Source: Actinoallomurus purpureus
GTDB lineage: Bacteria > Actinomycetota > Actinomycetes > Streptosporangiales > Streptosporangiaceae
Reading direction: 5' to 3'
DNA length: 64,000 bases
NCBI RefSeq assembly: GCF_024055795.1
Contig: NZ_JAMXMY010000005.1
Span: forward strand, 248,001 to 312,000
Part shown: piece after piece, positions 43,261-51,754 of the stretch
Layout of the letters: each line of letters begins with the position of its first letter
Numbering within the stretch: position 1 is the stretch's first letter
Made by a program: the position numbers and the translations under genes
The notes under the pieces: model-generated
The model's input: the letters and a program-made list of their open reading frames with translations, nothing else
What the model was told of the DNA's origin: nothing
Databases searched by the model: none

Positions 43261-43971
43261 TCATGAGTGCGAAAGCTCCCGCTGCCGGTCGGACTGACCC
43301 GACGGGGGCGTCCGGCGGCGTAGGAGCCCGGCCAGCGCGGCGACGGCGGCGAGCATGACCGGCACGCCCGGGGGCAGCAGCGGCGTCGTCGCGACCGCGA
43401 TCGCCATCGCGAGCAGCGCGACCACGCGTTCGGTGCCCCCGGAGGTAAGCCGTGGCCACAGCAGGGCGAGGAAGGCCGCCGGGCCGACCACGTCGAGGCC
43501 GTACGTCTTGGGGTCGCCCAGCCGGGCCGCGCCGACCGCGCCGAGCAGGGTGGCGAGGTTCCAGGTGGTGTAGATGCTGATGGCGGTGGCCCAGAACCCC
43601 GCGCGGGCCGACCGCGGGCCGGGCTGGGCGGTGGCCACCGCCGTCGACTCGTCGATGACGACGTGGGCCGTCAGCAGCCGGCGCCATCCGCGTACGCCGA
43701 GCGTCGGCGCGAGCCGCAGGCCGTAAAGGGCGTTCCGGCCCCCGAGCAGCACCGCGCCGGCGGCTCCCGCGATCAGGTTGCCGCCGCCGGCGACCACGCC
43801 GATCAGCGCGAACTGCGACGCTCCCGAGAACGCCACCAGGCTCAGGACGCAGGCCTGCGCCACCCCCAGCCCGGCCGCGACGGCCGCGGCCCCAAATGCC
43901 AGCCCCGACAGGCCGACGGCCACGCCGACCCCCAGCCCGTCGCGGACCGCTGAGCGTATGTCCGAATCCAT
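43261..43971 (-). CDS. azlC: AzlC family branched-chain amino acid exporter subunit
   Basis: AzlC-type permease of 236 aa with several membrane helices. Hallmarks are the N-terminal GLGVGVAVGLSGLAFGAA, LVAFSGASQFALIGVVAGGG, and RNALYGLRLAPTL. It is paired with azlD and probably acts in export of branched-chain amino acids. A TAGCCT -10 sits 6 nt before the ATG, so the mRNA is probably leaderless. Confidence 0.87.
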   Translation of the reverse strand: MDSDIRSAVRDGLGVGVAVGLSGLAFGAAAVAAGLGVAQACVLSLVAFSGASQFALIGVVAGGGNLIAGAAGAVLLGGRNALYGLRLAPTLGVRGWRRLLTAHVVIDESTAVATAQPGPRSARAGFWATAISIYTTWNLATLLGAVGAARLGDPKTYGLDVVGPAAFLALLWPRLTSGGTERVVALLAMAIAVATTPLLPPGVPVMLAAVAALAGLLRRRTPPSGQSDRQRELSHS

Positions 43972-43977
43972 ATCCGC

Positions 43978-43983
43978 AGGCTA
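43978..43983 (-). promoter_or_regulatory. -10 element of leaderless azlC
   Basis: TAGCCT on the minus strand, 6 nt before the azlC ATG, with no Shine-Dalgarno sequence. Confidence 0.4.
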
Positions 43984-47965: not shown

Positions 47966-48972
47966 GGCACCGATGCTACCGACCGCTCCATCGAGGACGG
48001 CAGGACGGCGGGCAGGCCGAAGGCCGTGAAGAGGCGCAGGTCGAAGAACATGGCGACGTGCGCGACCCCCGCGGGCGCCGGCGTGAGCACCTGCAGCGCG
48101 AACGCGTGGTGCGCGCCGTCGGCGGCCCGCATGTAGACGGCGAACGCCGGCTGCCCGTTGGCCCGCGTCGGGAGCAGCCGCATCGCGCCGGGGCCGTCGG
48201 CCGGGCACTGCGTGCTGATGAGGCGGCCGATGTCCTCGTTGCCCTGGTACCACCCCGTGTAGGGCGGCATCTCCCAGACGGCGTCGGCGGTGAGCAACCG
48301 CACGATGGCGGCGACGTCGTACTCCTCGAAGGCCCGGACGTAACGGGCGAGCAGCTCGCGATCCTCCGGCGACGTCGGCTCGGTGAGATCCTCCTGTGGC
48401 GCCACCTCGTCGAGCCGGGCACGGGCGCGCTGCAGGACGCTGTTGACCGCGGTGGTCGTCGTGTCGAGCACCTCCGCGACCTCGGCGGCCCGCCACTTCA
48501 GCACGTCGCGCAGGATCAGCACCGCCCGGTGCCGGGGCGGCAGGTGCTGCAACGCGGCGATCAGCGCGAGCCGGATGCTCTCCCGGGAGGTGACGATCGC
48601 GGCCGGATCGGCGTCCTCGGCGCCGGCCATGGCGTCGGGGATCGGCTCCAGCCAGGGCACCTCGGACCGCTCGACCAGCGTGTCGTACGGGTCGGCGCTC
48701 GGGTCGCCGAGACCCGTCGGCAGGGGCCGGCGGCCGCGGCTCTCCAGGGCGGTGAGGCAGGTGCGGGTGGCGATCCGGTGCAGCCACGTCCGCAGCGAGG
48801 ACCGGCCCTCGAACCCGTCGTAGGAGCGCCACGCCCGCAGGTAGGTCTCCTGGACCTGGTCCTCCGCGTCGTGCACCGAGCCGAGCATGCGGTAGCAGTG
48901 CGCCAGCAGCTCGCGCCGGTACGGAGCCGCCTGCCGCAGGAAGTCTTCTTTGACCGCCTTGTCCGTGCTCAT
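47962..48972 (-). CDS. ECF RNA polymerase sigma factor with SnoaL-like C-terminal domain
   Basis: Sigma-70 family factor of 336 aa. Region 2 (YRRELLAHCYRMLGSVHDAEDQVQETYLRAWRSYDGF) and region 4 (ALQHLPPRHRAVLILRDVLKWRAAEVAEVLDTTTTAVNSVLQRARARL) are intact. The C-terminal 120 residues form a SnoaL/NTF2-like domain (VRAFEEYDVAAIVRLLTADAVWEMPPYTGWY), which in this sigma group replaces a separate anti-sigma factor. GAGGG precedes the ATG. It is coupled to the AraC gene. Confidence 0.88.
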   Translation of the reverse strand: MSTDKAVKEDFLRQAAPYRRELLAHCYRMLGSVHDAEDQVQETYLRAWRSYDGFEGRSSLRTWLHRIATRTCLTALESRGRRPLPTGLGDPSADPYDTLVERSEVPWLEPIPDAMAGAEDADPAAIVTSRESIRLALIAALQHLPPRHRAVLILRDVLKWRAAEVAEVLDTTTTAVNSVLQRARARLDEVAPQEDLTEPTSPEDRELLARYVRAFEEYDVAAIVRLLTADAVWEMPPYTGWYQGNEDIGRLISTQCPADGPGAMRLLPTRANGQPAFAVYMRAADGAHHAFALQVLTPAPAGVAHVAMFFDLRLFTAFGLPAVLPSSMERSVASVP

Positions 48973-49167
48973 GGTGATCCCTCATTGCTTCGGCGACCGA
49001 CGGTGGCCGCAGGCCACCACCCCTGTATACGCCCGCCCCCCGACAGAACGGCCGTGACCCGGAACAGGACATCGGCGTACCCGGCGGTGAGGGTCGCCCC
49101 ACGCGGATCTGGTCTCAATGACCGAGACGAGAACTCCGTCCGGTGGCATCCCGCCCGGCGCCACGGT
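48973..49167. promoter_or_regulatory. Divergent region between sigma factor gene and aromatic leader
   Basis: 195 nt with GC-rich sequence and a GTATAC palindrome at about 49023. It contains the divergent promoters but no gene I can support. Confidence 0.3.
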
Positions 49168-49173
49168 TACCCT
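49168..49173 (+). promoter_or_regulatory. -10 element of the aromatic leader
   Basis: TACCCT ends 6 nt before the GTG of the leader peptide, so the transcript should begin at that GTG. The -35 is poorly conserved. Confidence 0.5.
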
Positions 49174-49179
49174 GGGCAC

Positions 49180-49242
49180 GTGGATCGTCGTTATTTCGCG
49201 TTTATGCAGCCGGCTCCGGGTGAGCCGGTCGCCGTGACCTGA
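49180..49242 (+). CDS. Leader peptide with Tyr-Phe-Ala-Phe run (attenuator)
   Basis: A 20-codon frame starting GTG encodes VDRRYFAF and ends in TGA before the hairpin region. The Tyr, Phe and Phe codons lie at 49192-49203. It appears leaderless. A short aromatic-rich peptide followed by a strong terminator hairpin, ahead of a chorismate mutase gene, is the classical layout of transcription attenuation. The ribosome would stall when charged tRNA-Phe or tRNA-Tyr is scarce. Mechanism inferred, not shown. Confidence 0.65.
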   Translation: MDRRYFAFMQPAPGEPVAVT

Positions 49243-49261
49243 GCGACGACCCCCGAGCCGG
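49210..49261 (+). promoter_or_regulatory. Alternative pairing segments of the attenuator
   Basis: CCGGCTC (49210-49216) can pair with GAGCCGG at 49222-49228 or with the same heptamer at 49255-49261. Its GGCTC core also matches GAGCC in the left arm of the terminator (49270-49274). These are mutually exclusive partners, as needed for an attenuator switch. Confidence 0.45.
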
Positions 49262-49263
49262 CC

Positions 49264-49291
49264 AAGGCAGAGCCCCACGGGCTCTGCCTTT
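49264..49291 (+). terminator. Attenuator terminator hairpin
   Basis: Perfect 12-bp stem: AAGGCAGAGCCC (49264-49275), loop CAC, GGGCTCTGCCTT (49279-49290), then T. The stem ends 58 nt before the structural gene start and 22 nt after the leader stop codon. Confidence 0.75.
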
Positions 49292-49348
49292 CGCATTTCC
49301 ACCGTGAGTGGGCGGCTCGGCTCCGGGCCCGCCCGGAGGGAGAGACCG

Positions 49349-50230
49349 ATGAACCTGCACGACGCGGACACCCCCGTCATGATCGCCGGACCCGCCGCCG
49401 GCCCGGACGTCGCCGTGGTCAGCCTGCGCCGCCTGCACGGCCGCGTGGACGCCGCCGCCGAGCTGGCACGGGTGCGCCGGTCGTACCGCGGACCACTGCT
49501 GGTCGAGCCGTTCTCCGCGCGCGACCTGCCGGCCATCGTGACGCACGCCAACGGCGTCGTGGTCGGCGGCGCCTGGATGCAGGACTTCCAGCTGCTGCGG
49601 GCGGTGGCCCGTACGGGACGTCCCGTGGTCGTGCAGCGCGCCCCGGCCGCCACGCTCGAGGAGTGGCTGTCGGCGGCGGAGTACTGCGTCGCCGAGGGCA
49701 ACCGGGACGTCGTCCTGTGCGAGACGGGCACCCGCACGCACCTGCCGCACGCGACCATCGACCTGGCACTGGTGCGGGAGGCCGGGCGCCGCCGGCCCGT
49801 CCTGGTGGACGTCTCGGCCGCCCCTGACCTCGCCGTCGCGGCCCTGTCGGCCGGCGCGCGCGGATTGATCCTCGGCGAGGACGCTGAACCGGACCTGGTG
49901 ACCGCGGTGCGCGCCAAGGCGGCCCTGCTCGGGCCGCTGGTCCGCGACGACGCGCCGGAGACGATCCCCGGCGCGCGGGCGGCCATCGACCGGATCGACG
50001 CGGCGCTGGCGACGCTGCTGGAGCGCCGGGCCGAGCTGGCGGCCACCGTGCAGCGGCTCAAGCCGGTCGGTGGCTTCGCCGGCCGGGACCCCCGGCGCGA
50101 ACGCGAGATCGTCGAGGCCATGGCGCCGCGCGCCCCCCGCCTGGGCACAGACCGGCTCGCGCGCATCATGGCAGCCGTAATCGAGACGGGTTTGGAAGCA
50201 TCGGAGGAGCGTGATTTGTCCCGAGCTTGA
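49349..50230 (+). CDS. Chorismate mutase fused to a degenerate DAHP-synthase-like domain
   Basis: A 293-aa two-domain protein. Residues 8-195 align with type I-beta DAHP synthase: MIAGPAAGP, VVVGGAWMQDFQLLRAV, LSAAEYCVAEGNRDVVLCETGTRT and VLVDVSAA. Catalytic features are lost: A16 for the metal Cys, no KPRTS loop, Q96-R-A for KRG, CETG (C124-G127) for CERG, and no His after D154. Residues 205-285 are an AroQ chorismate mutase with R210, D247, R250 and E251 conserved; the Gln88 equivalent is Ala. So the mutase may be active, making prephenate, while the first domain is probably regulatory. GGAGGG precedes the ATG. It lies behind a Tyr/Phe leader. Confidence 0.75.
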   Translation: MNLHDADTPVMIAGPAAGPDVAVVSLRRLHGRVDAAAELARVRRSYRGPLLVEPFSARDLPAIVTHANGVVVGGAWMQDFQLLRAVARTGRPVVVQRAPAATLEEWLSAAEYCVAEGNRDVVLCETGTRTHLPHATIDLALVREAGRRRPVLVDVSAAPDLAVAALSAGARGLILGEDAEPDLVTAVRAKAALLGPLVRDDAPETIPGARAAIDRIDAALATLLERRAELAATVQRLKPVGGFAGRDPRREREIVEAMAPRAPRLGTDRLARIMAAVIETGLEASEERDLSRA

Positions 50231-50254
50231 GAGGGCCGCCCGACGAATGATCAT

Positions 50255-50290
50255 CGAGGTTCTTCGTATCGTCGGCGACGAAGAACCTCG
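50255..50290. terminator. Bidirectional terminator between convergent genes
   Basis: A perfect 13-bp inverted repeat (CGAGGTTCTTCGT at 50255-50267 with ACGAAGAACCTCG at 50278-50290, loop of 10) sits between the chorismate mutase gene and the converging FAD oxidase gene. Confidence 0.7.
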
Positions 50291-50347
50291 GCCGAAGCTG
50301 ATCGCGATGGAGGGGCCCACCTGCCTGGGCTGAGCGGGTGGCTTCGG

Positions 50348-51754
50348 TCACTCCGGCGGGATGTGGTGGCCCGGACGGAACACGTCATCCGGGTCCCAGG
50401 TCCTCTTGATCCGGCTCAGGCGGGCGTGGTCCTCGGGCGTGTACGCGGTCCGCGTCCGGGCCGGGTCGGTCAGGAAGTTCAGGAAGGTCCCACCGGTCGC
50501 GTACGGCCGCAGCCGACCGGCCAGGCCGTCGACGGACGCGTCGACACGGGACCGCTCGTCCGCGTCGCCGTGCCCGGTCCCGCCCGCGCCGTACGGCGCG
50601 GTCGCGATCACGGAGAACGGCACGTCGCGGTGGCCCACCGGCCCGGCGTCCGGCGCGGGCCGTGCCATCGCCCCGCCCCAGTGCCGGACCTCGACCGCCG
50701 GCCCCGGTGACCCGCCGAACGCCGCGTCCGGCAGTGCCTCCAGCACCGCGCCGGGCAGGTCGCGGAACAGGTCGATGTGCTGGCGGACCGCCATCGGGGG
50801 CGCCGTCGGCCCGGCGATCGTGACGCCCGCCTCCGCGAACGTCATCGCACGGAAGCCGTCGAGCAGCGGCGTGCCCGCCGCCTCCAGCAGCGGCCGGAGC
50901 CGGGGCTCGGCCTCCTCGTACCCGCCCAGGTGGAAGACCCGGACGGCGAGGACCGGCCGGCCGCGCACCGGTTCGGGGACGGCCGGGGCGTCCGGCATCC
51001 GCATCAGCATGACGGCCGTGTTCAGCTCGTCCGGCTCGCCGTCCGCCCAGTCCCGGTAGCGGGCGAGCGTCTCGGCCGCGCGGCCGGCGTCGTACAGCGA
51101 GACGCCCGCGTAGACCCGCCCGACGGCGTGCAGCCGTACCTCCAGCGCGGTCACGGCGCCGAAGTTGCCGCCTCCGCCGCGCAGCGCCCAGAACAGGTCG
51201 GCGTGGTGATCGGCGTCGGCCGTGACGTGCTCGCCCTCGGCGGTCACCAGGTCGGCCCGCAGCAGGCCGTCGGCGGCGTAGCCGTGCCTGCGGGAGAGCC
51301 ATCCGGTGCCGCCGCCCAGGGTGTAGCCGGTCACGCCGACGGACGGGGTGCCGGACAGCGGCGCCAGGCCGTACAACGCGGCGGCGGCGATCACCTCCGA
51401 CCAGCGCGCGCCGGGACCGACCCGGGCGACGCGCCGGTAGGGATCGACCCGCACCTCCGCCATCCGCCGCGTCGTGAGGAGCAGGCCGCCGTCGGCGGGC
51501 ACGAGCGTGCCGTGGCCCGTCGCCTGGACGGCGAACGGCAGGGCGTGCTCGCGCGCGGCGACGACCGCGGCCCGTACGTCGTCGGGACCGGTCGCCTCGG
51601 CGACCGTCAGCGGCCGGTGGTCGATCCGGAGGTTCCAGCCCGAGCGCGCCTCGTCGTACGCAGCGTCGCCGGGCAGGTGCACCGGTCCGGCGAAACTCTC
51701 GCGCAGCGTGCGTGCGATGCCCGCCGGGCCGGTGGTCGTCGTCGTCCGCGCCAT
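50348..51754 (-). CDS. FAD-dependent oxidoreductase (PCMH type, BBE C-terminus)
   Basis: Flavoprotein of 468 aa in the berberine-bridge-like group. An FAD-binding PCMH domain (about 45-220) contains PFAVQATGHGTL with the His position that can bind FAD, and GVTGYTLGGGTGWLSRRHGYAADGLL. The second covalent Cys found in bicovalent members is not seen in that loop. The C-terminal substrate domain ends with the BBE segment LSRIKRTWDPDDVFRPGHHIPP. It is divergent from the sensor kinase gene. Substrate unknown. Confidence 0.85.
   Translation of the reverse strand: MARTTTTTGPAGIARTLRESFAGPVHLPGDAAYDEARSGWNLRIDHRPLTVAEATGPDDVRAAVVAAREHALPFAVQATGHGTLVPADGGLLLTTRRMAEVRVDPYRRVARVGPGARWSEVIAAAALYGLAPLSGTPSVGVTGYTLGGGTGWLSRRHGYAADGLLRADLVTAEGEHVTADADHHADLFWALRGGGGNFGAVTALEVRLHAVGRVYAGVSLYDAGRAAETLARYRDWADGEPDELNTAVMLMRMPDAPAVPEPVRGRPVLAVRVFHLGGYEEAEPRLRPLLEAAGTPLLDGFRAMTFAEAGVTIAGPTAPPMAVRQHIDLFRDLPGAVLEALPDAAFGGSPGPAVEVRHWGGAMARPAPDAGPVGHRDVPFSVIATAPYGAGGTGHGDADERSRVDASVDGLAGRLRPYATGGTFLNFLTDPARTRTAYTPEDHARLSRIKRTWDPDDVFRPGHHIPPE

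Follow-up and report, generated by a model that had tools for sequence, protein, structure and literature searches.

A pseudo-DAHP synthase/chorismate mutase fusion in Actinoallomurus purpureus and its relatives, with a predicted aromatic attenuator upstream

The 64,000-nucleotide stretch of DNA analyzed here, from the soil actinomycete Actinoallomurus purpureus (the window) carries on its plus strand, at 49349..50230, a gene for a protein of 293 residues, recognized from its translation, Pfam, and orthologues, in which two aromatic-pathway domains are joined. The first, residues 1-198 (49349..49942, plus strand), is of the type I-beta DAHP synthase (DAHPS) kind: it forms a compact (beta/alpha)8 barrel but has none of the catalytic residues. 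The second, residues 206-292 (49964..50224, plus strand), consists of the helices of an AroQ chorismate mutase (CM), as placed by Pfam CM_2, the helices of the AF2 model, phmmer, and column counts. DAHPS is the first enzyme of the pathway, and CM is the enzyme that opens its phenylalanine/tyrosine branch. Just upstream, at 49168-49291 on the same strand, a conserved 5' leader RNA encodes a Tyr/Phe leader peptide and can form covarying helices, among them a terminator-like hairpin.

A preliminary description of this DNA had proposed that the N-terminal half follows type I-beta DAHPS and had called for a structure prediction. The proposal is borne out by Pfam, PDB sequence matches, AF2, and fold comparison, and the order of a DAHPS-like barrel without catalytic residues ahead of an AroQ CM is confirmed as the real architecture. 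In fold and sequence together, type I-beta DAHPSs are closest to residues 1-198; KDO8P synthases come nearly level with them on fold alone, and it is the PDB sequence matches that tell the two apart. The AF2 model of the barrel is complete, with eight strands, and of high confidence. Chance homology to DAHPS is ruled out by Pfam, the PDB sequence matches, and the fold comparison, a mere fragment by the presence of all eight strands in the model, and a recent pseudogene in A. purpureus by the uninterrupted frame and the low dN/dS in comparisons of related genes. On the fusion protein, the Pfam CM_2 profile scores 45.3 bits (cut-off 27), whereas NF005894 (PRK07857, AroQ-delta/MtCM-like) scores 23.4 bits and PRK12595 102 bits, below their cut-offs of 73 and 279.

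How far the synthase site has gone can be seen in an alignment of 43 distinct fusions and 21 paralogous type I-beta DAHPSs, drawn from the fusion genomes themselves or from related ones. All 21 paralogues keep the metal Cys, the Lys and Arg of KPRTS, the RNMQ Arg, the KRG Lys, the CERG Arg, and the DPSH His, and 20 keep the Thr and Ser of KPRTS. In the fusions, five of these residues are gone without exception. The columns of the metal Cys and the KPRTS Arg are gaps in 42 fusions each, the one other residue being Leu and Ala, respectively. Ala takes the place of the RNMQ Arg in 38, the KRG Lys has become Q (38), R (4), or E (1), and the CERG Arg is replaced by Ser, Thr, Gly, Ala, Cys, or Asn. 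In a gapped region, the alignment places His in the metal His column of 2/43 fusions and Asp in the VHP acid column of 3/43. The absence of the metal Cys, KPRTS, the KRG Lys, the CERG Arg, and the metal His, first pointed out for the one gene, holds across the family apart from the two fusions with His in the metal His column. The barrel is almost certainly without DAHPS activity. In a bifunctional DAHPS-CM both domains are catalytic, and the present protein, judged by its sequence, is not one of these, its DAHPS residues being lost. Sensing of PEP at the old site is also unlikely, because the KRG Lys, RNMQ Arg, and CERG Arg are lost in 43/43 fusions.

Other positions are held firmly. E53, R97, E105, C124, and E125 are retained in all 43 fusions and R129 in 42, and replacement residues are conserved too: W76, which is new, in 41/43 and Q96 in 38/43. 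The site therefore has a consensus of its own, made of kept residues and the new W76, which points to more than mere decay. Among five Actinoallomurus genes (Nei-Gojobori, 10 pairs), dN/dS was 0.215-0.336 in the barrel (residues 1-198) and 0.123-0.265 in the CM helices; in 8/10 pairs the barrel had the higher value. The barrel is under purifying selection, with a somewhat weaker constraint than that on the CM.

The mutase half looks quite different. In A. purpureus it retains R210, R227, K238, D247, R250, and E251; the equivalents of the AroQ mutase residues R11, R28, K39, D48, R51, and E52 (E. coli numbering) are invariant in 63/63 CM domains, of which 46 belong to fusions and 17 stand alone. 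Here too the preliminary description, which had listed R210, D247, R250, and E251 as kept, is upheld. The position of Gln88 (S285 in A. purpureus) is never Gln in these 63 domains, nor Glu; it is A in 53, S in 9, and P in 1, so that CM activity may be low when unaided. One place further on, an acidic residue is usual (E in 56, D in 2 of the 63).

It is worth asking which other mutases and synthases the cell has. The A. purpureus genome also encodes an AroH-type CM and, besides a match to type II DAHPS, a type I-beta DAHPS that is intact; we found no type I-alpha DAHPS match in it, and no NF005894 match at 1e-5. The AroH-type enzyme rules out the fusion as the sole CM of the cell and means that the fusion CM may be redundant there. 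Family f3 is a different case. In its three genomes (G062, G063, and G064; completeness 100, 97, and 77%), the only ones without AroH among the 24 fusion genomes of our 100-genome set, no AroH-type CM was found at E 0.001 and no NF005894 CM at E 1e-5, and the only CM_2 matches are the fusion and, in G064, a second copy at a contig end. The fusion is the only kind of CM detected in these genomes, which speaks for a working fusion CM, and we regard an active CM, as predicted from the residues, as very likely.

The family is widespread, beyond what had been recognized at the outset. In the set of 100 genomes (G000-G099, A. purpureus included), the fusion is present in 24, and a CM of this lineage stands alone in 11. 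Across the order, the fusion is matched in one piece in at least 111 of 345 genomes. This figure is a hand count, among the matches listed, of single-piece matches that begin no later than model position 68 and end no earlier than 286; one internal stop codon is present in eight of them. In genome G007 (Actinoallomurus), no gene of the fusion/CM lineage was found. The fusion is also present in the strain named Actinomadura sp. DC4 (L033), whose genome (G006), however, groups in Actinoallomurus.

Several relatives lack all or part of the barrel. Actinoallomurus soli and Actinoallomurus spadix (L026 and L025) have the CM only, 89-93% identical to that of A. purpureus over residues 200-293, with about 184 codons gone in frame and the leader, 5' region, and linker intact. 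In a tree of type I-beta DAHPS, whose root is unreliable and in which one row (L135) sits on a very long branch, the two species cluster with A. purpureus (99/94), beside other fusion-bearing Actinoallomurus, a placement most simply explained by secondary loss of the barrel. Six Actinomadura loci (L041-L046) have a standalone CM without the barrel, and the barrel of G040 is shortened; in its genus, g34, the matches of all seven genomes listed begin only at model position 63. With the barrel deleted in the first case, absent in the second, and cut short in the third, it is dispensable. A tree of the CM domain (63 rows, 92 columns) contains five changes between the fused and unfused states, at a resolution too poor to polarize the ancestral one. 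As a side observation, the fusion of genome G010 (L027) has a low-complexity insert of 130-odd residues separating barrel and CM, and other split matches occur in genus g4. Another is an AzlC-family gene on the minus strand of the window (43264-43980): all 14 relatives' loci compared (15 loci, with L043 left out), fused or standalone, have an AzlC-like gene in the neighborhood of the CM, which supports orthologous places for the fused and standalone CM genes.

Fusions of these two families are already known. In the CM-DAHPS of Bacillus, Listeria, and Geobacillus, the DAHPS is active. These proteins (3nvt, 5j6f; PRK12595) are built from the same two families and give the closest PDB sequence matches, and in the PDB alignments their CM comes first, whereas the DAHPS-like domain leads in A. 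purpureus. The preliminary description was therefore right that the order is the reverse of the Bacillus fusion, but the order is not new: the DAH7PS-CM of Prevotella nigrescens and Porphyromonas gingivalis is described as a single chain with N-terminal DAHPS and C-terminal CM. Those domains are reported there as bifunctional and interdependent; the DAHPS half of A. purpureus, by contrast, is without catalytic residues and its barrel is shortened. An apparently inactive aromatic-pathway domain kept on a live pathway enzyme has likewise been described for the TyrA of Nostoc and Anabaena, where it is the AroQ CM domain that is dead and not, as here, the DAHPS. Both the DAHPS-first fusion and the inactive pathway domain on a live enzyme thus have precedents in these sources. 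A dead DAHPS fused to a CM in actinomycetes we did not find described in a search that covered titles and the openings of abstracts, with subscription journals mostly outside it.

What, then, does the barrel do? We would regard it as a non-catalytic module, descended from a type I-beta DAHPS that lost its metal- and substrate-binding residues and kept a trimmed barrel, and probably stabilizing or tuning the CM. On balance we lean, narrowly, toward a selected role of this structural or regulatory kind. The barrel could also be left over from a bifunctional DAHPS-CM ancestor, retained only through inertia or for solubility and now being lost, as its clean removal, in frame, from the proteins of A. 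soli and A. spadix, its absence at the six Actinomadura loci, the shortened form in G040, and the insert between the domains in G010 would suggest. A relic agrees poorly, however, with a barrel dN/dS of 0.215-0.336, with a fusion-specific consensus (W76 and Q96) across two families, and with a complete, high-confidence barrel in a fusion carried by at least 111 of 345 genomes, and we think it unlikely, although it deserves to be kept in mind. It is extremely improbable that the barrel, by means of unusual residues, continues to form DAHP or some other aldol product: it is complete and no type I-alpha DAHPS match turned up in the A. purpureus genome, but the metal Cys and the PEP Lys/Arg are gone in 43/43 fusions and the same genome has type II and type I-beta DAHPS.

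Two further readings, along lines raised in the preliminary description, would give the barrel a more specific task than the stabilizing or tuning one that we prefer. It might dock on the true DAHPS, of type II or I-beta, and so couple the CM to feedback, as in Mycobacterium. The Mycobacterium tuberculosis CM (MtCM, AroQ-delta) is reported to have no counterpart of Gln88 and to need DAHPS in order to be highly active; it is likewise an actinobacterial AroQ CM with a DAHPS fold as possible partner, there a type II DAHPS. The A/S/P at the Gln88 site in 63/63 domains here, the type II DAHPS match in 23/24 fusion genomes, and the intact I-beta DAHPS of A. purpureus would all fit docking. The likeness has its limits, though. 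The A. purpureus barrel is covalent, dead, and of type I-beta; its CM has Lys at the K39 site, where MtCM is described as having Arg, and, unlike MtCM, Asp at the D48 site. Type II DAHPS is widespread in any case (82/100 genomes), and relatives without the barrel still have the CM. We consider docking quite doubtful. Alternatively, the barrel, with a remodeled pocket, might sense a ligand that controls the CM, be it Phe, Tyr, prephenate, or a sugar phosphate. The polar residues conserved at or near strand ends (E53, R97, and E125 in 43/43, R129 in 42, Q96 in 38) and the conserved W76 speak for such a pocket, but they may serve the fold only, and the gene already has an amino-acid-linked leader; sensing strikes us as improbable. 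Partnerships of DAHPS and CM are a model for the regulation of an enzyme by its partner, and the natural series of dead-barrel fusion, shortened barrel, and deleted barrel makes it possible to ask directly, with no need for design, how a pseudo-DAHPS contributes to its CM.

The leader is the second part of the story. A -10-like box, TACCCT (49168..49173, plus strand), stands 6 nt before the start of a short open reading frame (49180..49242, plus strand), and the transcript is predicted to be leaderless. The frame encodes VDRRYFAFMQPAPGEPVAVT, followed by a stop, with one Tyr and two Phe codons and an invariant TTT at 49201-49203. A long-range helix joins CCGGCTCCGG (49210..49219, plus strand) to CCCGAGCCGG (49252..49261, plus strand), and the first seven bases of its 5' arm can alternatively pair with 49222-49228 in a local hairpin. 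Next comes a terminator-like hairpin, AAGGCAGAGCCC-CAC-GGGCTCTGCCTTT (49264..49291, plus strand), whose stem covaries across 32 sequences. Farther upstream, some 30 nt and more ahead of the leader, the motifs GTCTC/TGAGAC and TCCG..TGGC recur on visual inspection and may belong to a promoter or an operator.

Our alignment comprises 32 CM leaders (21 fused, 11 standalone) in 172 columns, in part drawn from named loci; it leaves out genomes G014, G015, G028, G053, and G057, of which the G053 peptide is without Trp. RNAalifold recovered the long-range helix and the terminator-like hairpin from these sequences. In this structure 96.7% of cells are paired and 10 of the 19 pairs have changed on both sides; the covariation score is 0.268 against 0.124 when shuffled, a value reached in 0/500 shuffles, and for further pair types 14/500 shuffles scored equally high. 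Shifting the alignment by 1-3 columns lowers the pairing to 58.5% or less, a control biased in favor of the structure because this was derived from the same 32 sequences. The local hairpin competes for the same 5' arm, and none of its 7 pairs has changed on both sides. All 32 leaders have an open reading frame of 16-21 residues, with at least one Tyr or Phe in 32/32 and two or more in 26/32. A TANNNT box stands 6-7 nt before the start in 32/32, a figure somewhat inflated since start codons were chosen with the box in view; at random places in the same loci the rate is 0.00125.

The folded A. purpureus leader retains the terminator hairpin. Its T run is short here, and a promoter/terminator scan of 48900-50400 listed no terminator. 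Rfam gave no relevant family match to the leader. In the RNAalifold structure, the folding of the leader, and the pair counts, no antiterminator that directly excludes the terminator was evident, just alternative upstream pairings. With a short open reading frame containing pathway codons, a terminator-like hairpin, and alternative pairings, the leader has several of the features expected of a ribosome-mediated attenuator, and it is highly probable that it is one for aromatic amino acids. A review describes a comparable case in Corynebacterium glutamicum, where the Phe-Tyr-Phe peptide of the aroR leader controls the DAHPS gene aroF by ribosome stalling. The likeness is one of description, leader peptide and stalling, and the present leader, which stands mostly before a CM, differs in its conserved helices without Rfam match. 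Several of the leader peptides listed for Streptomyces lividans are also leaderless, no Phe/Tyr leader appears among the eight in the 2021 list for that species, and a 2005 survey of Actinobacteria reported no conserved RNA structure upstream of phenylalanine/tyrosine operons.

Our best reading of the locus is that of a predicted live CM for the Phe/Tyr branch, under attenuation control and carrying a pseudo-DAHPS module. The gene product would be a working AroQ-type CM. Its leaderless mRNA would begin at the start codon of the leader peptide (49180). When charged Tyr or Phe tRNA is scarce, the ribosome would stall on the Tyr/Phe codons and keep the GC-rich arm that follows from pairing, and fewer transcripts would then stop at the terminator hairpin. 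The outcome would most likely be more CM when charged Tyr/Phe tRNA is short. We hold this explanation as a whole, with its active CM, non-catalytic tuning barrel, and ribosome-mediated attenuation, with moderate confidence.

The same leader also occurs elsewhere. A covariance model of it (R1), run over the 100 genomes, found the leader at 21/24 fusions and 11/11 standalone CMs; in three of the 24 fusion genomes (G033, G040, and G046) it was not found before the fusion. Seven more full-length matches, with E-values from 5.2e-18 to 5.1e-5, lie just 5' of type I-alpha DAHPS (G009, G033, G039, G043, G059, G082, and G094). Inspection of 20 further upstream regions of such genes added an eighth in G048, the leader being absent from the other 19. 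It is thus known before 8 of the 30 type I-alpha DAHPS matches (loci L120-L126 and L196); three of the 30, the second G059 copy, G066, and G036, were covered by the genome-wide R1 search only. Four weaker R1 matches at L127-L130 (E 6e-5 to 0.0025) were taken as chance after inspection of their sequences.

Trp is present in 8/8 DAHPS leader peptides, as the run W-Y-W-R in six, and in only one of the 32 CM leaders (L014; Fisher p 1.2e-7, kinship uncorrected). Placed in register, the DAHPS leaders read W-Y-W-R-F and that of A. purpureus R-Y-F-A-F. In the G009 DAHPS leader, the open reading frame has no stop within the 120 nt examined. The leader therefore lends itself to testing how the amino acid specificity of an attenuator follows the gene it controls, with Trp codons for the common step and almost none for the Phe/Tyr branch. 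It may be, though we offer this as a speculation with the chances rather against it, that protein and RNA have both re-used parts of DAHPS control: a pseudoenzyme derived from DAHPS regulating the CM, and a DAHPS attenuator for all three aromatics (W-Y-W-x-F) re-coded to Tyr/Phe (R-Y-F-x-F).

Within family f1, type I-alpha DAHPS is present in 2/21 genomes with the fusion, 6/11 with the standalone CM, and 18/29 with neither (fusion against neither, p 0.0003, kinship uncorrected). A last, minor observation concerns G033, whose fusion (L013) stands at a locus without the leader and has an odd CM C-terminus, possibly a frameshift; the leader of this genome sits at its type I-alpha DAHPS instead.
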